The notes beneath the pieces were generated by a model that searched no databases, was not told the DNA's origin, and saw only the letters and a list, made by a program, of their open reading frames with translations. DNA of 64,000 nucleotides, from contig NZ_NFKT01000025.1 of the NCBI RefSeq assembly GCF_002160525.1, positions 1 through 64,000 of the forward strand. Direction: 5' to 3'. Source of the stretch: Lachnoclostridium sp. An169 (GTDB lineage: Bacteria > Bacillota > Clostridia > Lachnospirales > Lachnospiraceae). The stretch's first letter is position 1. Every line of letters begins with the position of its first letter. This document shows positions 22,520 to 29,951 of the stretch, piece by piece. A program made the position numbers and the translations under genes.

Positions 22520-22703
22520 GGATATTCAGCTTATGATGTGATTGTTGCTTATGATGGAAATATTCCGGTTGGATGCGCCAGCTTTAAGCGCTATGATGAG
22601 GAATGTGCCGAAGTGAAACGGGTCTTTGTGAAACAGGCTTATCGGAAAAAGACTTTATAAGTTCTTAGATAAATGGAAAGAAGCGCAGGAGGTACCTGTA
22701 TGA
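22520..22703 (+). pseudogene. GNAT acetyltransferase fragment, frameshifted
   Basis: From 22520 one frame reads GYSAYDVIVAYDGNIPVGCA, continuing through VKRVFVKQAYRKK to a stop at 22658-22660. This is the beta4 and acetyl-CoA-binding region of a GNAT acetyltransferase. A shifted frame then gives YKFLDKWKEAQ to 22703. The N-terminus and C-terminal strands are missing. Between 22453 and 22519 nothing recognisable remains. Confidence 0.6.
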
Positions 22704-23347
22704 AGATTGAGATAGGAAAAGAATTTCCCGAGTATTTTAAACCGTTATATCCGGAAGAGTTTGACCTGTTCTCACATTTTGAGGTGACGGCAGGGATACC
22801 GACGGTTTTATTTGCCGTCACTACATGGAAAGAAAACGGACAGCCGAATATATGTTTTCATTCCTGGAGCTGTTTCCACGGAGATAAAACGGCGTTTTTT
22901 GCTGTTATGGGAAATCTGTACCAGCACACGCATACTTATGCAAATATCCTGAGAGAGAAATGTTTCTGCATTAATTTTCTGCCGATCAGCCATTACGAAA
23001 ACCTTGTGGAGACGATTCGCCATAATGAGTACGAAGATGATGAATTTGCATCAGGAAATTTTACCCTTTCCAATGCCGGCACCATTCATGCGCCGATGAT
23101 ACAGGAGGCATTTATCAGTATGGAGTGCACGTTAAAAGAGGTGCAGGATCTCAGCGGGGCAGGGGTCACCGCCATGGTTATCGGGCAGGTGCAGCACATC
23201 TCTGTTGAGGAAGAGTATGCAAGAGGATATCAGAAACGGTACGGAAAAGAGGGATTCATGATGCTGGTGCCGGCGCCTCAGGATCTTGTCTCCGGAGAGC
23301 CGAATCAGTCCGCGATCGCTACTGTGAATATCGAAAAATATGACTGA
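22700..23347 (+). CDS. Flavin reductase family protein (FMN-binding split barrel)
   Basis: 215 residues. The N-terminal part has the flavin-reductase barrel pattern: EVTAGIPTVLFAVTTW, NICFHSWSCFHG, FAVMGNLYQHTHTY and REKCFCINFLPISHYENL, followed by the GAGVTAMVIGQVQHI strand. Proteins of this group bind FMN and transfer electrons from NAD(P)H or act on small flavin acceptors; substrate is unknown. The ATG at 22700 follows CAGGAGGTACCTGT. No partner oxygenase is present. The start overlaps the end of the GNAT remnant. Confidence 0.85.
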   Translation: MKIEIGKEFPEYFKPLYPEEFDLFSHFEVTAGIPTVLFAVTTWKENGQPNICFHSWSCFHGDKTAFFAVMGNLYQHTHTYANILREKCFCINFLPISHYENLVETIRHNEYEDDEFASGNFTLSNAGTIHAPMIQEAFISMECTLKEVQDLSGAGVTAMVIGQVQHISVEEEYARGYQKRYGKEGFMMLVPAPQDLVSGEPNQSAIATVNIEKYD

Positions 23348-23498
23348 CCGTGTTGGTGATGAAAAGAGATGTATTACAAACAGCTCTATAATTAATAAAA
23401 CAGAAGCGATTTGAAAACAAAAGAATAACAGAAACCCGTTAAGATAAGACCTGTCAGATGAACATAATAATATGTTTAAGAAAGAGAGGTCTTTTTCA

Positions 23499-24527
23499 AT
23501 GGGTAAAACAGTTTATTTGGTAACAGGGGCAGCAGGTTTTCTTGGAAGCCATGTATGTGATGAACTTCTGGAGCGGGGAGATCATGTGAGGGCTCTTGTA
23601 CTCCCTGGTGATAAATCCGTAAAATACGTTCCGGAGGAAGTGGACATTGTTGAGGGTGACCTCTGCGACGTGGATTCACTGGAACGGTTTTTTACGATCT
23701 CCGAAGGAGAGGAGTCTGTAGTCATCCACTGTGCGAGCATGGTGACGACGAATGCAGAGTTCAGCCAGAAGCTGATGGACGTCAATGTGGGCGGAACGAA
23801 AAATATGATCGATATGTGCCTGAAGCATCCGGAATGTAAGAAGATGGTCTACGTCAGTTCCACAGGCGCAATCCCGGAGCAGCCAAAAGGCACGGTGATC
23901 CGTGAGACAGACCATTTCACCCCTATCGATGAGAAACGTCAGGTGGGATGTTACAGCCAGTCCAAAGCTCTGGCGACCCAGGCAGTGTTGGATGCATGTA
24001 AAGAGAGAGGTCTGAAAGCCTGCGTGGTGCATCCGAGCGGGATCCTGGGACCAAAAGACTACGCAGTCAGTGAGACGACAGGCACGGTCATCAAGATCAT
24101 GAACGGAAAGATGCCTGTGGGAATGGGCGGTTCTTTTAATCTCTGCGATGTGCGCGATCTGGCGCACGGATGCGTGGGCGCGGCAGACAGGGGCAGGATC
24201 GGAGAGTGCTACATCCTGGGGAATAAAGAAGTGACCTTAAAGGAGATGTGCAGGATGCTCCATGAGGCAAGCGGGTGTAAGACGCCGTATTTCTATGTCC
24301 CGATCAGCATGGCATATAAACTTGCGGAACAGATGGAGAAAAAAGCGGAAAAGACGGGAGAAAAACCGATGATGACGAATTTCGCCGTATATAATCTGGC
24401 GAGAAATAATAAGTTTGATTACTCCAAGGCGGAGCGGGAGCTGGGATATCATACCAGACCGTATGAGGAAACCCTCCGGGACGAAGCCAGATGGCTGATG
24501 GCAGAAGGATATCTTGAGACGGCATAA
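23499..24527 (+). CDS. NAD(P)-dependent epimerase/dehydratase (extended SDR)
   Basis: 342 residues of the extended short-chain dehydrogenase family, close to dihydroflavonol-4-reductase-like members. The nucleotide-binding motif TGAAGFLGSHV is at about 8-18, followed by VEGDLCD, VIHCAS, the catalytic YSQSK motif (Tyr-x-x-x-Lys) near 152 and HPSGILGP. The C-terminal half (from about 200) is substrate-specific. The ATG at 23499 follows AAGAGAGGT. A truncated classical SDR gene is 36 bases downstream. Substrate is unknown. Confidence 0.88.
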   Translation: MGKTVYLVTGAAGFLGSHVCDELLERGDHVRALVLPGDKSVKYVPEEVDIVEGDLCDVDSLERFFTISEGEESVVIHCASMVTTNAEFSQKLMDVNVGGTKNMIDMCLKHPECKKMVYVSSTGAIPEQPKGTVIRETDHFTPIDEKRQVGCYSQSKALATQAVLDACKERGLKACVVHPSGILGPKDYAVSETTGTVIKIMNGKMPVGMGGSFNLCDVRDLAHGCVGAADRGRIGECYILGNKEVTLKEMCRMLHEASGCKTPYFYVPISMAYKLAEQMEKKAEKTGEKPMMTNFAVYNLARNNKFDYSKAERELGYHTRPYEETLRDEARWLMAEGYLETA

Positions 24528-24563
24528 CGCATAAAAACAGGAGAAAATGGAGGGAGAACAATC

Positions 24564-25112
24564 ATGGAGAAGAAAATCTGTGTTATCACCGGAGGCGGAA
24601 GCGGCATGGGACTGGAGAGCGCAAAGCTCATGGGCAGGACCCACTATGTGATCATCTGCGGACGTACTGTCGGCAAACTGAAAGACGCCATTGAAAATCT
24701 GAAGAGGGAAGGTGTGGAGTGCGAGGCATTTCCCTGTGATGTGGGAGACTATACTTCTGTGCGGAAGCTTGCGGAACACGCCCGAAAGCTTGGCGAGGTG
24801 CAGGCGGTGATCCATGCGGCCGGGATGAGTCCGCATATGGGAGATGCGGAGGATATCATGCAGACTAATGCACTGGGCACGGTCTATATGAATACGGAGT
24901 TTGCCAGAGTGATGGGCGAAGGGGGATGCATCCTGGATGTCTCTTCCATGTCAGCCTATCTCACTCCGTCACTTGTGATGCCGCGAAAACTCTACAAATA
25001 TGCTCTGGAAGATGTGGAACTGTTCCGGGAGAAGATCAACAGGAGCCTGAGGATTTTCCCGAAGTCTGTGCGGCCGGGTGTGGCATCCGGGGTATCTGCG
25101 TTTAGCCGGTGA
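24564..25112 (+). pseudogene. Short-chain dehydrogenase, C-terminally truncated
   Basis: 182 codons. The Rossmann motif TGGGSGMGLESA, CDVGDY, the NAAG-equivalent HAAGMS and the catalytic Ser strand ILDVSSMSAYL are all present. The frame ends as VRPGVASGVSAFSR just where the Tyr-x-x-x-Lys active site should be; SGVSAF seems a corrupted YGVSKNF. Classical SDRs of this type are about 260 residues, so roughly the last 80 residues with the catalytic Tyr and Lys are gone. A short product could still be made from ATG 24564 (GGAGGGAG upstream) but would not be active. Confidence 0.75.
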
Positions 25113-25161
25113 AGATTTCCAAGTTGATAATTTCTGGCGAGATGATCTCTTATTTTTTCCG

Positions 25162-25191
25162 TTGCACAGTGAGGGGCTCAGGGAGTATGAT
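25162..25191 (+). promoter_or_regulatory. Candidate promoter of the DUF362 gene
   Basis: TTGCAC (25162-25167) and TATGAT (25186-25191) with an 18-bp spacer, about 55 bases before the start codon at 25249. Confidence 0.5.
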
Positions 25192-25248
25192 ATAAATGGT
25201 GCAAAAAGTGACTCAATCAGGATTCGCAGTAAAAAGGAGGAGTTTGCA

Positions 25249-26250
25249 ATGTCAGATCAGAAACCAGTACCGGGCACCGGAGGAAACCGCTATATTCCAT
25301 ATGAAGAGCGGACCGGCGGGGAATCCACGGTTTATTTTACAAGAGACCTGTCCGCGGAGGGACTTCGGAAAATATTCAAAAGAGTGAGCGGTGAGCTTAC
25401 GGGCAAGGTGGGAATCAAGCTTCACACCGGGGAGCCGCATGGCCCCAACATTATCCCCCGTCCATGGGTGGAGGCGCTGATCAGAAATGAGCTGCCGGAG
25501 GCTAATATCGTGGAGACGAACACGTATTATGACGGTGGACGTTATACGACGGAAGCCCACAGGGAGACGCTGAAAGTAAACGGATGGACGTTCTGTCCGG
25601 TAGACATCCTGGATGAGGACGGTGCGGTTCCGTTTCCGGTGGAAGGCGGCAAGTGGTTCCACGAGATGTACATGGGGAAAAATCTTCAGAACTATGATTC
25701 CCTCTTTGTCCTGACTCATTTCAAGGGGCATACCCAGGGCGGCTTCGGCGGTTCCGGCAAGAATATCGGCATCGGATGTGCGGATGGAAGGATCGGAAAG
25801 GCGATGATCCACACGACGCCGGGATCCGATGATATGTGGGATATTGCGAAAGAAGAATTTATGGAGCGGATGATGGAGTCCGCAAAAGCTGTGGTGGATC
25901 ATTTCGGAAAACATATCTGTTTTGTAAATGTTCTGCGCAACATGTCAGTTTCCTGCGACTGTGAGGGAGTGGCGGCAGCGCCGGTTGTGACGCCGAACAT
26001 CGGGATTGTCGCTTCCACGGATATCCTTGCGGCAGATCAGGCGTCCGTTGATCTGGTTTATGCGCTGAAGGAAGAGGACCGGCATGCTCTGACCGAGCGG
26101 ATGGAGTCCCGGCACGGATTAAGGCAGCTCACCTATATGAAGGAGCTTCATATGGGAAATGACAGATACCATCTGTTCGATATCGACAATGAGGACAGAG
26201 AGATTACACTGGCGGAGGCTGTGAAAGATGTTGTTCCATTCGAAGGATAG
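25249..26250 (+). CDS. DUF362 domain-containing protein
   Basis: 333 residues. DUF362 features are GKVGIKLHTGEP, EANIVETNTYYDGGRYTTEAH, the THFKGHTQGGFGGSGKNIGIGC region (cited in parts: THFKGHTQGGFGG, KNIGIGCADGR) and DQASVDLVYAL near the C-terminus. Many relatives carry a 4Fe-4S ferredoxin pair; here no CxxCxxC cluster is present, only SCDCEG. The function of the family is not established; an iron-sulfur or redox role is inferred from relatives. ATG 25249 follows AAAAAGGAGG. The next gene, apbE, starts inside its 3' end. Confidence 0.85.
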   Translation: MSDQKPVPGTGGNRYIPYEERTGGESTVYFTRDLSAEGLRKIFKRVSGELTGKVGIKLHTGEPHGPNIIPRPWVEALIRNELPEANIVETNTYYDGGRYTTEAHRETLKVNGWTFCPVDILDEDGAVPFPVEGGKWFHEMYMGKNLQNYDSLFVLTHFKGHTQGGFGGSGKNIGIGCADGRIGKAMIHTTPGSDDMWDIAKEEFMERMMESAKAVVDHFGKHICFVNVLRNMSVSCDCEGVAAAPVVTPNIGIVASTDILAADQASVDLVYALKEEDRHALTERMESRHGLRQLTYMKELHMGNDRYHLFDIDNEDREITLAEAVKDVVPFEG

Positions 26251-27307
26251 GGAACGCGCGGCAGAAAATTCTCTTATGCGGCGGGGATTTCTGACCCTGC
26301 CGCTTCTTGCTGCGCTGTTGTTCACGGGATGTTCTTCTCTGGGGGCGGTAAATGAGGAGCCGGTGCAGTCCGATCTCTTTGCCATGGACACTTATATGAC
26401 GTTTACTGCATACGGGGACGGGGCAGAGCAGGCGCTTGCAGACGTAGAAGAACGGATAAAGGAACTGGAAGGAGAATGGTCTGTCACAGATGAAGGCAGT
26501 GAGATCTACAGGGTCAACCACAGCGGCGGCGCACCGGTGGAACTTGGAGCGGATACGGCGGGAATCGTAAGCTTTGCCCTGGAGATGGCAGAGGAGACCG
26601 GAGGGGCTCTGGATCCTACAATCTACCCGGTGCTGACGGCGTGGGGATTTACCACGGATGAAAACCGGATTCCCTCCCAGGAGGAGATCGACAGCCTTCT
26701 TGAACATGTGGGATATGAAAAAGTAGAAATGTCAGGAAATCAGATCTCCCTTCCGGAAGGGATGGAGATAGACCTGGGTGCAGTGGGAAAAGGATATGCC
26801 GGGGATCTTGCGGCGGAGATTATAAGAGAAAAGGGGATCACCAGCGCGCTCCTGGATATCGGCGGCAATATTCAGGCAGTCGGCTCCCGCCCCGGCGGAG
26901 GGGACTGGCGGCTGGGAATTCAGAATCCATTCGGGGACGGGCAGATCGGGCTGCTCACAGTGTCTGACTGCGCGGTGGTGACTTCAGGCAATTATGAGCG
27001 CTATTTTATTGGAGAAGATGGAAAACGGTACTGCCACATTATCGATCCGAAGACCGGATATCCGGTGGATAACGGTCTGGCTTCCGTCACAGTAATCACA
27101 GAGGAGGGAAGGAGAGGAGACGCTCTTTCCACAGCGCTGTTTGTGATGGGCGCGGAAGAAGCGGAAAATTACTGGAGGGATAACAGCGGATTTGAGCTGA
27201 TTATCATCACGGAGGAGGGAAAAGTCCTTATTACCGAAGGCGTGTCGGATCAGTTCACTCTGGGAAGTTCCTTTTCAAATATGGAGGTCAGTGTGATCTC
27301 CAGATAA
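26228..27307 (+). CDS. apbE: FAD:protein FMN transferase, lipoprotein
   Basis: 359 residues. It attaches FMN covalently to a Thr/Ser of extracytoplasmic electron-transfer proteins. A lipoprotein signal (RRGFLTLPLLAALLFTGC, lipid on Cys at about residue 35) exports it. ApbE motifs are present: DLGAVGKGYAGD, LLDIGGNIQAVG, TSGNYERYF, HIIDPKTGYPV and GDALSTALFVMG with the Mg-binding Asp and Thr. The ATG at 26228 has GGAGG nine bases upstream within the DUF362 gene, whose stop it precedes by 22 bases; an ATG at 26276 lacks a site. Pairing with DUF362 suggests a shared redox role. Confidence 0.92.
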   Translation: MLFHSKDRERAAENSLMRRGFLTLPLLAALLFTGCSSLGAVNEEPVQSDLFAMDTYMTFTAYGDGAEQALADVEERIKELEGEWSVTDEGSEIYRVNHSGGAPVELGADTAGIVSFALEMAEETGGALDPTIYPVLTAWGFTTDENRIPSQEEIDSLLEHVGYEKVEMSGNQISLPEGMEIDLGAVGKGYAGDLAAEIIREKGITSALLDIGGNIQAVGSRPGGGDWRLGIQNPFGDGQIGLLTVSDCAVVTSGNYERYFIGEDGKRYCHIIDPKTGYPVDNGLASVTVITEEGRRGDALSTALFVMGAEEAENYWRDNSGFELIIITEEGKVLITEGVSDQFTLGSSFSNMEVSVISR

Positions 27308-27318
27308 AGGAGGAGTTC

Positions 27319-27459
27319 AATGAGAGCAAACTTTTGTCAGAGATTCCTCCGGCAGACATTGTGATTACAATGGGGTGCAACGTGAACTGCCCGTATCTGC
27401 CATGCAGTTACAGAGAGGACTGGGGGCTGTATAAGCTCCCTTTTTTGATGGAAAAATAA
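27319..27459 (+). pseudogene. Arsenate reductase (LMW-phosphatase type) C-terminal fragment
   Basis: One frame reads LLSEIPPADIVITMGCNVNC followed by PYLPCSYREDWGL and then unrelated residues to a stop at 27459. ADIVITMGC...CP.LP...EDWGL is the conserved second half of thioredoxin-coupled arsenate reductases. The N-terminal CxxxxxR loop is absent, so it is a remnant. Confidence 0.65.
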
Positions 27460-27469
27460 AAAACTTAAA

Positions 27470-27537
27470 TGTAACTGTTGACATTACAATAAAGACGTGC
27501 TACTTTAATAACGCGAGATGTAATAAAAACGATTACA
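27470..27537 (+). promoter_or_regulatory. Promoter of the sirtuin-macrodomain operon with two matching operator dyads
   Basis: The -35 TTGACA (27478-27483) and -10-like TACTTT (27501-27506) are 17 bp apart. Two 19-bp dyads of the form TGTAAY-N7-ATTACA flank the -10: site 1 at 27470-27488 (TGTAAC...ATTACA, centred on the -35) and site 2 at 27519-27537 (TGTAAT...ATTACA). Their centres are 49 bp apart. Binding at either would block initiation, so repression by an unidentified regulator is likely. Confidence 0.65.
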
Positions 27538-27617: not shown

Positions 27618-28625
27618 ATGGCGATCCAGATTTTACACAGGAAAAACCAGGCAGAGAGCACCCATAAGATAGAGAAAATAGATTTTTCCCGGTTTTTGAG
27701 CGGGATGCCTGCCAGAGACTATATTTTTCAGAATATTCCTTATGAGGAACAGATCCGGCAGGTGGCAGAGCTTCTGGAGGATGCGGACGCGGTGATTATC
27801 GGCGCGGGCGCCGGTTTGTCCACAGCGGCAGGAATGAATTACGGGGGACGGCGTTTTACGGATAATTTTCAGGAGTTTATCGACCGGTACGGACCGGCAT
27901 ATATGACAGATATGTACAGTGCGGGATTCTACCCGTTCCCCACCCAGGAGGAAAAATGGGGCTACTGGTCCAAACACGCTTACCTGAACCGGATCGAGCC
28001 GGATGCGCTCCCCCTTTACCGTTCCGTTTATGATCTGGTGAAAGAGAAACCACACTTTGTGCTGACTACAAATGTGGACCATCAGTTCTGGAAAGTGGGA
28101 TTTTCCGATGAGGAGATCTTCGCCACCCAGGGGGATTACGGAGAGATCCAGTGTGAAAAAGGCTGTCATCCGAAAGTATATGATGCTGTGGAGCTTTTCA
28201 GCAGAATGAATGAGGCGAGAACAGGCTGTCAGATCCCCTCGGAGCTGGTGCCGAAATGTCCGGTGTGCGGCGGCAATATGACCATGCATCTGCGGTGCGA
28301 CCAGTATTTTTTGGAAGATGAGCACTGGCATGAGGCCGCGGCGCGTTACGGAGATTTCTTAAGTGAGTACAGCGGGAAAAAAGTCGTGCTTCTGGAGCTT
28401 GGCGTCGGCTTCAATACACCGACCATCATCCGTTTCCCCTTTGAAAAGATGGTGCGCCAGGAGGCGGGCTGGTCTCTGGTGCGTCTGAATCTGAACGAGG
28501 CGGTAGTGCCGGAAAGCCTCGGAGAGCGGGCGGTAGGGATCAATGCCGATCTTGCCGGAAGTATTGAAGATATACGGAAGCTATGTGCGGGGACCGGAGA
28601 GGAGCGTGCAGAAAATGACGCATGA
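27618..28625 (+). CDS. Class M sirtuin (SirTM), protein ADP-ribosyltransferase
   Basis: 335 residues. NAD-binding motifs of the Sir2 fold are clear: GAGAGLSTAAGMNYGG (about 59-74) and TTNVDHQFWKVGF. The catalytic His of deacetylase sirtuins is replaced by Gln171 (FATQGDYG), and Asn152 lies 19 residues before it, the same spacing as the Asn118/Gln137 pair of streptococcal SirTM, which ADP-ribosylates rather than deacetylates. Zinc ligands are Cys179, Cys183, Cys214 and Cys217. AAGGAGG precedes ATG 27618. The macrodomain gene overlaps its end. No GcvH-like substrate or lipoate ligase gene, the usual partners, is nearby. Confidence 0.92.
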   Translation: MAIQILHRKNQAESTHKIEKIDFSRFLSGMPARDYIFQNIPYEEQIRQVAELLEDADAVIIGAGAGLSTAAGMNYGGRRFTDNFQEFIDRYGPAYMTDMYSAGFYPFPTQEEKWGYWSKHAYLNRIEPDALPLYRSVYDLVKEKPHFVLTTNVDHQFWKVGFSDEEIFATQGDYGEIQCEKGCHPKVYDAVELFSRMNEARTGCQIPSELVPKCPVCGGNMTMHLRCDQYFLEDEHWHEAAARYGDFLSEYSGKKVVLLELGVGFNTPTIIRFPFEKMVRQEAGWSLVRLNLNEAVVPESLGERAVGINADLAGSIEDIRKLCAGTGEERAENDA

Positions 28626-29394
28626 AGAACAGAGAATCTGGCTGATCCGGGAATTGCTGGCGGAACTTCCTCAGTACAGTGAGATGAAAGTTCCGGACAA
28701 TGAGGAAGAGCAGAAGAGGCTCCTGAGAAGCCTGATGAATATCCGCGTTCTCCGCCCGATCAGTGATGAATTTCTTAAAATTCAGGATGAATACTTGAGG
28801 GAAGAGGTCGCAGAAAAAGGAATTACAGACAGTGCATCGCTGCCTCCGTCATCCCTTGACAGCCGTCTGGTATTATGGCGCGGGGATATTACAACGCTGA
28901 AGATCGATGCGATCGTAAACGCAGCCAACAGTGCTTTGAGGGGATGTTTTGTGCCCTGCCATTCCTGCGTGGACAACATCATTCACAGCGTAAGCGGCAT
29001 ACAGCTCCGTCTGGCATGCGATCGGCTTATGAATGAGCAGGGGCACGACGAGCCCACGGGGAAAGCAAAGATCACGCCTGCATATAACCTGCCCTGCAGG
29101 TATGTACTCCACACGGTAGGACCGATCGTATCGGGAATCCTGACGGAGCAGCACTGCAGACTGCTCGCGGACTGCTACCGCTCCTGTCTGGAACTGGCAG
29201 CAGAAAGTGGTCTGAAAAGCATTGCATTCTGCTGTATTTCCACGGGAGAGTTTCATTTTCCGCAGAAAAAAGCGGCAAAGATCGCGGTGCGCACAGTCAG
29301 GGAATTTCTGGATAAAGATGATCGAATTGAGCGGGTTGTGTTTAATGTATTCAAAGAAACGGATTACGAAATTTACAGAGAACTGCTGGAATAA
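28615..29394 (+). CDS. Zinc-dependent macrodomain protein-ADP-ribose hydrolase
   Basis: 259 residues. After an N-terminal helical region (1-80) the macrodomain begins at LVLWRGDITTLKIDAIVNAANS. The insertion GCFVPCHSCVDNIIH with Cys111, Cys115, His116 and Cys118 is the hallmark of zinc-containing macrodomains that remove ADP-ribose placed by SirTM. GPIVSG and CCISTGEFHFP form the remaining ADP-ribose loops. The ATG at 28615 lies 11 bases inside the sirtuin gene with GGAGAGGAG upstream, so the pair is translationally coupled. It is the eraser of the two-gene module. Confidence 0.92.
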   Translation: MTHEEQRIWLIRELLAELPQYSEMKVPDNEEEQKRLLRSLMNIRVLRPISDEFLKIQDEYLREEVAEKGITDSASLPPSSLDSRLVLWRGDITTLKIDAIVNAANSALRGCFVPCHSCVDNIIHSVSGIQLRLACDRLMNEQGHDEPTGKAKITPAYNLPCRYVLHTVGPIVSGILTEQHCRLLADCYRSCLELAAESGLKSIAFCCISTGEFHFPQKKAAKIAVRTVREFLDKDDRIERVVFNVFKETDYEIYRELLE

Positions 29395-29424: not shown

Positions 29425-29453
29425 TCCTGCGGATTCTTCCCGCAGATTTTTTT
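29425..29453 (+). terminator. Intrinsic terminator of the sirtuin-macrodomain operon
   Basis: A 6-bp GC-rich stem CTGCGG (29427-29432) with CCGCAG (29440-29445), 7-nt loop, followed by seven T (29447-29453). Confidence 0.75.
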
Positions 29454-29868: not shown

Positions 29869-29951
29869 ATGCATAATGATATCTCCCGTGCTTTATGCAC
29901 GGTTTATTATAGATGATAAAGATAAGACTTATTTTTCAGGAGGTATTTGCG

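Follow-up and report, generated by a model that had tools for sequence, protein, structure and literature searches.

A minimal class M sirtuin–zinc-macrodomain operon of Lachnoclostridium sp. An169 with a putative SifR/YwnA-type twin operator

What does a pair of a class M sirtuin (SirTM) and a zinc-macrodomain act upon, and when is it produced, if no lipoyl carrier is encoded alongside? This question is raised by a locus of Lachnoclostridium sp. An169 located in a stretch of 64,000 nucleotides (contig NZ_NFKT01000025.1, positions 1 to 64,000), which is referred to below as the window. Class M sirtuins were defined by the His-to-Gln change and by linkage to a macrodomain, with Lachnospiraceae listed among their carriers (Rack 2015, PMC4518038). 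The SirTM/Zn-Macro pair occurs alone, in an extended operon or as a fusion, and the lone form has been named the 'minimal operon' (Ariza 2024, PMC11490716). A pair without GcvH-L, whose novelty the original prediction implied, is therefore not new in kind. GcvH-L is the only known SirTM substrate, and targets other than GcvH-L as well as the physiological role have been called elusive (Ariza 2024, PMC11490716).

The SirTM–macrodomain pair

In the window sirtuin, the catalytic His is replaced by Gln in a QG motif (Q171, G172), while the Asn (N152) and the Arg (R226) are kept. N152, Q171 and R226 all fall in conserved columns of the alignment of 52 fetched stretches and the window. The Asn152/Gln171 pair had been taken as diagnostic of class M; both residues are present, but the Asn is common to sirtuins generally, and only the change from His to Gln is diagnostic (Rack 2015, PMC4518038). 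Linkage to a zinc-macrodomain, the second mark of the class, takes the form of a gene overlap. The closest solved relatives are 5a3a (E 1.9e-49), which we take to be the S. pyogenes SirTM, and then the sirtuin half of the fungal fusion 8rsn (E 2.6e-29). As we read the 5a3a alignment, R226 is probably the counterpart of Arg192 in the S. pyogenes enzyme. The Pfam search assigned no family to the window SirTM, and the NCBIfam search gave a weak sirtuin match of 25.7 bits.

The macrodomain carries the zinc loop GCFVPCHSCVDNIIH in place of the Gly-rich loop, followed by Dx3H. In NCBIfam it scores 350.5 bits for NF003163 'protein-ADP-ribose hydrolase', for which the cut-off is 272. Its closest solved relative is 8rsi (E 5.8e-84), followed by 5kiv/8rsl and 8rsm. 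8RSI is MorMacro of M. oralis, an example from a minimal operon, 8RSL is SauMacro, 8RSM is SpyMacro (Table 1 of that paper) and 5KIV is an earlier SauMacro structure (Ariza 2024, PMC11490716). With motifs, NF003163 score and solved relatives in agreement, the identification of the module as sirtuin plus zinc-macrodomain holds.

Both open reading frames were confirmed at 27618-28625 and 28543-29394. Because the conserved region and the NF003163 match begin near residue 26 of the 283-aa frame (the match at residue 26 itself), the ATG at 28615 is the likely start of the macrodomain. The two genes overlap as described earlier, but by 11 nt (28615-28625) and not by 83. The locus holds these two genes only. 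The ApbE gene ends 311 nt before the SirTM start, and the next sizeable gene 3' of the macrodomain, Fe-ADH at 29913, is more than 500 nt away. Terminator-like sites are found on both sides (Table 1), the count of such hairpins in the region (4 versus 2.6 +/- 1.6 in shuffles) being not above chance.

Table 1. Features of the SirTM–macrodomain locus in window coordinates
Feature	Position	Strand	Basis or remark
Terminator-like hairpin between ApbE gene end (27307) and operator	27422-27440	+	Hairpin scan
Operator dyad 1, TGTAACTGTTGACATTACA	27470-27488	.	Perfect TGTAA-N9-TTACA
Presumed -35 TTGACA inside dyad 1	27478-27483	+	17-nt spacing recurs in relatives
Presumed weak -10 TACTTT, 17 nt past -35	27501-27506	+	Comparison with relatives
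Operator dyad 2, TGTAATAAAAACGATTACA	27519-27537	.	Perfect TGTAA-N9-TTACA
Class M sirtuin (SirTM), predicted protein mono-ADP-ribosyltransferase	27618-28625	+	335 aa ORF, motifs, solved relatives
Zinc-macrodomain, predicted ADP-ribosyl hydrolase	28615-29394	+	Open frame from 28543 (283 aa), likely start 28615
Terminator-like hairpin 3' of macrodomain gene	29427-29445	+	Hairpin scan

Pfam and NCBIfam identify the flanking genes as ApbE, DUF362, SDR, flavin reductase-like and Fe-ADH. Those lying 5' of the pair on the same strand (22673-27307: flavin reductase-like, two SDR-type, DUF362 and ApbE, a FAD:protein FMN transferase) form a possible flavin/Fe-S electron-transfer cluster adjoining the pair. 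The dN/dS ratio is low where computable, being 0.05-0.10 in five of nine comparisons for SirTM and 0.10-0.27 in four of eight for the macrodomain, with saturation in the rest. Both frames are open, and the window pair looks to be under constraint.

SirTM-like sirtuins (E <= 1e-20) were found in 120 of the 250 genomes of the window's family, the weaker ones including tandem paralogues. The SirTM loci of named relatives (32 loci) belong to Mediterraneibacter, Lachnoclostridium, Hungatella and other Lachnospiraceae. Some of the fetched sirtuins depart from the common form. The SirTMs of L070-L073 keep the Asn, Gln and Arg and lack the zinc-ribbon cysteines. In 12 fetched loci (L074-L085, e.g. L078:8836-10717), two or three sirtuins are adjacent, one being a class-M-like copy (NQD..QG, Arg kept) and one a degenerate copy (NGE or NAE..EG, Arg lost); such sets look like a writer with an inactive partner. 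A zinc-macrodomain is absent alongside them, L074 having an ordinary GGG-loop macrodomain about 6 kb off. Nine of the 12 have an Rrf2-family gene close by, and several carry DUF3786 or C_GCAxxG_C_C genes.

Operator and regulators

Upstream of the window SirTM lie two perfect TGTAA-N9-TTACA dyads, 49 bp apart from start to start and flanking the presumed promoter. This sequence has been published as the operator of two Rrf2 repressors, S. aureus HypR and S. pneumoniae SifR (PMC9218516). Of the 28 close dyad pairs (<80 bp) counted in the neighbourhood comparison described below, 19 have this spacing of 49. Relatives also share the 17-nt spacing of the promoter hexamers, with better -10 sequences (TATCCT, TATAGT, TATTTT). 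The window promoter was not listed by a generic promoter scan, since its -10 matches at only three of six positions.

Single dyads are at chance level in the window genome, with 8 against 8 in the reversed control. If up to three mismatches are allowed, the consensus of dyad 1 is found once, at SirTM, compared with three and two times for its reversed control; weight is therefore given to the twin arrangement and its recurrence only. The six dyads away from SirTM all lie within long open frames, and other genes under the operator in this genome were rejected. The twin arrangement is likewise found once, at SirTM. Across 80 SirTM genomes, 19 such places were counted, spread over 17 genomes, while the reversed control gave none in any of the 80; the search required exact half-sites with 18-40 bases between the dyads and thus undercounts. 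Seventeen of these places were returned as loci, and 11 of them lie at a SirTM operon or its immediate partners. Of the other six, five adjoin a different Rrf2-family gene, and three of the five also have a small cupin-like frame. In these three (L157, L163, L164), the twin operator is situated between the Rrf2 gene and the cupin-like frame, a name given by weak NCBIfam matches for one of the three frames. The frame is perhaps a second target of the SifR/YwnA-type Rrf2 regulator.

The neighbourhoods of 69 loci were compared (40 fetched, 32 from named genomes and the window, minus the duplicate contigs L090, L098, L107 and L115), near-identical strains such as L091/L093 being kept. Regulators were scanned from -3.5 to +4.5 kb and dyads within 2.5 kb upstream of SirTM; an Rrf2 gene was counted as SifR/YwnA-like if at least 55% identical to that of L090. 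A dyad is present in 34 of the 69 loci and a twin in 26. The SifR/YwnA-like gene is near in 28 of the 34 loci with a dyad versus 3 of the 35 without, an association that is softer than its Fisher p of 2.5e-10 because the loci are related and not independent. For HxlR-family genes the distribution is 3 of 34 with a dyad versus 19 of 35 without. Either regulator gene is near the pair in 50 of the 69 loci (Rrf2 in 31, HxlR in 22, some having both). Among the 42 loci with a SirTM at least 55% identical to that of the window, the window included, a dyad was found in 31, a twin in 25, the Rrf2 gene in 27 and HxlR in 9; the dyad is absent in 11.

The motif of the SifR/YwnA group, HxxPNPxC (PMC9218516), is strictly kept in 21 of 33 SirTM-linked Rrf2 proteins, a set including two duplicate contigs and one tandem-group copy, and most of the others have a one- or two-letter variant. 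With 63 and 62.5 bits, SirTM-linked Rrf2 proteins score far below the HypR equivalog cut-off of 180. Beside the window pair there is no Rrf2 gene. The genome carries its own SifR/YwnA-like gene in trans (L126, C88:52017-52421), with HENPNPNC, and the protein is 85% identical to the SirTM-linked Rrf2 of L093 and has 1ylf and YwnA 1xd7 as solved relatives. The gene is flanked on one side by a VOC-type gene and on the other by a permease gene, which at its start looks similar, by eye, to one adjoining SirTM in L100. No dyad with up to two mismatches was found within 1.5 kb of the trans Rrf2 gene.

SifR is described as sensing quinones via one cysteine. The HxlR-type regulators HypR, YodB and CatR of B. 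subtilis sense HOCl, quinones and diamide, and HxlR senses aldehydes (PMC6943732). The association of the pair with two unrelated regulator families thus points to thiol-reactive electrophiles as a candidate signal.

It is probable, in our view, that the pair forms an electrophile- or quinone-induced, lipoyl-independent two-gene ADP-ribosylation switch within a SifR/YwnA/HypR-type regulon, with the target encoded elsewhere. The SifR/YwnA-like Rrf2 repressor, encoded in trans, would bind both dyads flanking the promoter and block it. A reactive electrophile would modify the single conserved cysteine of the repressor, which would then leave the DNA, and SirTM and the macrodomain would be made together. 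SirTM would move ADP-ribose from NAD+ onto the target, and the zinc-macrodomain would take it off. The target would most likely be the product of a gene outside this locus. It would not be a lipoylated GcvH-like carrier, since neither of the lipoylation genes sought (GcvH, ligase) was found, nor an obligate operon partner, since this locus lacks the redox genes that adjoin related pairs. For the window pair itself, such regulation is suggested by comparison with the related loci.

Three known systems come closest to the window pair and its proposed wiring. With SifR of S. pneumoniae, YwnA/YwnB of B. subtilis and HypR of S. aureus it shares TGTAA-N9-TTACA, an HxxPNPxC Rrf2 protein and, in relatives, a YwnB-like gene; however, SirTM and the macrodomain are not among the SifR regulon genes in the published account available. 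With the minimal SirTM/Zn-Macro operon it shares the presence of two genes only, the class M Gln for His, the zinc-macrodomain and 8rsi as the best solved relative, whereas the available text of Ariza 2024 gives lone pairs no operator, regulator or redox partner. In the extended form, known from S. aureus and S. pyogenes (with GcvH-L, LplA2, OYE and LLM), writer and eraser are homologous to those of the window, and there is likewise a link to oxidative or thiol stress. In contrast, neither GcvH-L nor a ligase was detected in the window genome, and instead of OYE and LLM the window relatives have PNPOx-type flavin/ferredoxin and YwnB-like genes. The one paper found to bring Rrf2, sirtuin and macrodomain together, PMC12710355, is in its accessible text about the extended operon in S. 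aureus, and HypR is cited there in a separate place. The open literature searched, outside of which lie most subscription journals and preprints, yielded nothing linking the lone SirTM pair to an Rrf2 operator; as far as the searches show, this operator/regulator wiring of the lone pair is new.

Possible targets of the pair

Three redox proteins recur as neighbours (Pfam): a flavin/ferredoxin protein that joins a PNPOx fold to a 2[4Fe-4S] ferredoxin domain at its C-terminus (18 of 69 loci), a PNPOx-fold protein of 131 residues (12 of 69) and a YwnB-like NAD(P)H-binding protein (12 of 69), the last name being our reading, as NCBIfam assigns no family. Any of the three is present in 33 of the 69 loci, and none lies beside the window pair. 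It is conceivable, although doubtful, that the flavin/ferredoxin protein is the native target, and that the window pair, having lost it, either persists as a relic or acts on a substitute. The gene lies upstream in the 18 loci mentioned (12 apparently full-length, six partial or remnant matches) and is sometimes coupled to the pair, being located 3 bp before the macrodomain in L043 and overlapping SirTM in L037. Remnants between the operator and the pair in L087 and L106, and by eye also in L045 and L108, point to repeated loss. However, no copy is detectable in 51 of the 69 loci, the window pair looks constrained, and co-regulated neighbours are often not substrates. In the window genome, the flavin/ferredoxin query gave no more than ferredoxin-domain matches, and a copy in trans was rejected; the YwnB-like protein gave no match there, in a search without positive control that is weak evidence. 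The pair seems to be kept where partners were lost, which argues against any one partner as the sole target.

Trees of writer and eraser were built for 54 pairs, after removal of duplicates (L090, L098, L107, L115), broken or partial loci (L044, L070, L112, L114, L117, L118) and loci without an intact gene of each kind. The SirTM and macrodomain trees reject each other in IQ-TREE, with log-likelihood gaps of 1832 and 1670 and AU p values of 1.1e-8 and 2e-4, for which the program warns that 5000 replicates are too few to be reliable. In its tree, the macrodomain of the window clusters with the ones from L096, L050 and L055 (ultrafast bootstrap 98), whereas the window SirTM is only 47% identical to the SirTMs of L050 and L055 and sits in a separate clade of 22 (support 94). 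In L035, SirTM is 74% identical to that of the window and the macrodomain 42%. The macrodomain is second, as in the window, in 32 of the 54 intact pairs, and the order is reversed in 22. Seven of the 69 loci have a SirTM without a detectable macrodomain nearby (L087, L101, L047, L057, L067, L102, L116), some of them at contig ends or cut short.

Such strongly conflicting trees indicate that writers and erasers were re-paired, by exchange or by paralogue loss. Hidden paralogy could be behind part of the conflict, some genomes having two or more copies. The macrodomain had been called the matching eraser of the sirtuin: its gene does overlap that of SirTM, but its history differs, which questions the idea of a fixed, co-evolved pair. 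Re-pairing fits, without proving it, an eraser that reads the linkage and not a writer-specific partner. Members of the zinc-macrodomain family can split even the S-glycosidic linkage in ADP-ribosyl-cysteine (Ariza 2024, PMC11490716). It is rather unlikely, albeit worth considering, that lone pairs are a general electrophile-stress device, in which several housekeeping redox proteins would have reactive side chains, thiols or carboxylates, capped by SirTM and uncapped by the zinc-macrodomain after the stress. Erasers would then be exchangeable between distant writers because they read the linkage and not one partner protein.

The enzyme activities in this clade are predictions, and the locus might hold no protein switch at all: it could encode a deacylase or an NAD-consuming defence pair, or be in decay. 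This is improbable, as the catalytic His is Gln, like in enzymes without deacylase activity (Rack 2015, PMC4518038), and both window frames are open and constrained-looking. An anti-phage defence pair was rejected, no PADLOC model matching SirTM or the macrodomain. The frequent presence of a regulator gene near the pair (50 of 69 loci) would suit a SirTM that modifies Rrf2 or HxlR as feedback on its own operon, but this is hardly likely, given that the pair is found with two unrelated families of regulator and that neither is near in 19 of the 69 loci, the window included.

The window genome is a 4.85 Mb draft of 90 contigs, 98.47% complete. Genome-wide searches found neither GcvH (PF01597) nor lipoate ligase (PF21948), and control matches for each were obtained in 13 of 14 known genomes. 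PF03099 gave a single match, to an ORF that by eye is BirA-like and has a helix-turn-helix at its N-terminus, and it was rejected as a lipoate ligase. The absence of carrier and ligase, predicted for the neighbourhood, extends to the whole assembly, GcvH-L and LplA2 being found neither with the pair nor elsewhere under the same operator; we agree with the original prediction in leaving the substrate open. Among the best 80 of the 120 SirTM-carrying genomes, ranked by SirTM match, PF01597 matches occur in 35 and a full-length GcvH in 14 only. The remaining matches are short or broken and centred on the modified-lysine region; we read them as biotin carriers. A lipoate ligase above the cut-off is present in 16 of the 80 genomes, and neither GcvH nor ligase in 63. 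In four genomes (G149, G046, G085, G035) GcvH is on the SirTM contig, always at least 105 kb from SirTM.

A target of the S. aureus and S. pyogenes type, namely a lipoylated GcvH-like carrier, would agree with the sole known substrate, and in a draft genome its gene and that of the ligase might have been missed or left unassembled. This reading is very unlikely. No GcvH or lipoate ligase was found in a 98.5%-complete genome, both are lacking in 63 of the 80 SirTM genomes, and the lone-pair and fusion zinc-macrodomains tested are inactive on GcvH-L (Ariza 2024, PMC11490716). The Arg-Arg placed at the lipoyl-carrier contact of the S. aureus enzyme (Ariza 2024, PMC11490716) is Ser-Gly in the window protein, in an alignment judged by eye.

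Meaning for the lone pairs

The window pair is ordinary in kind and informative in its wiring, as it offers a hypothesis on timing and an excluded substrate class. A genome without detectable lipoylation genes (GcvH, ligase) argues against the lipoyl model for this branch. The operator suggests testable inducers (quinones, diamide, HOCl) and a testable repressor. Such an inducer would indicate when to look for ADP-ribosylated proteins, and this may explain why none are known for lone pairs.
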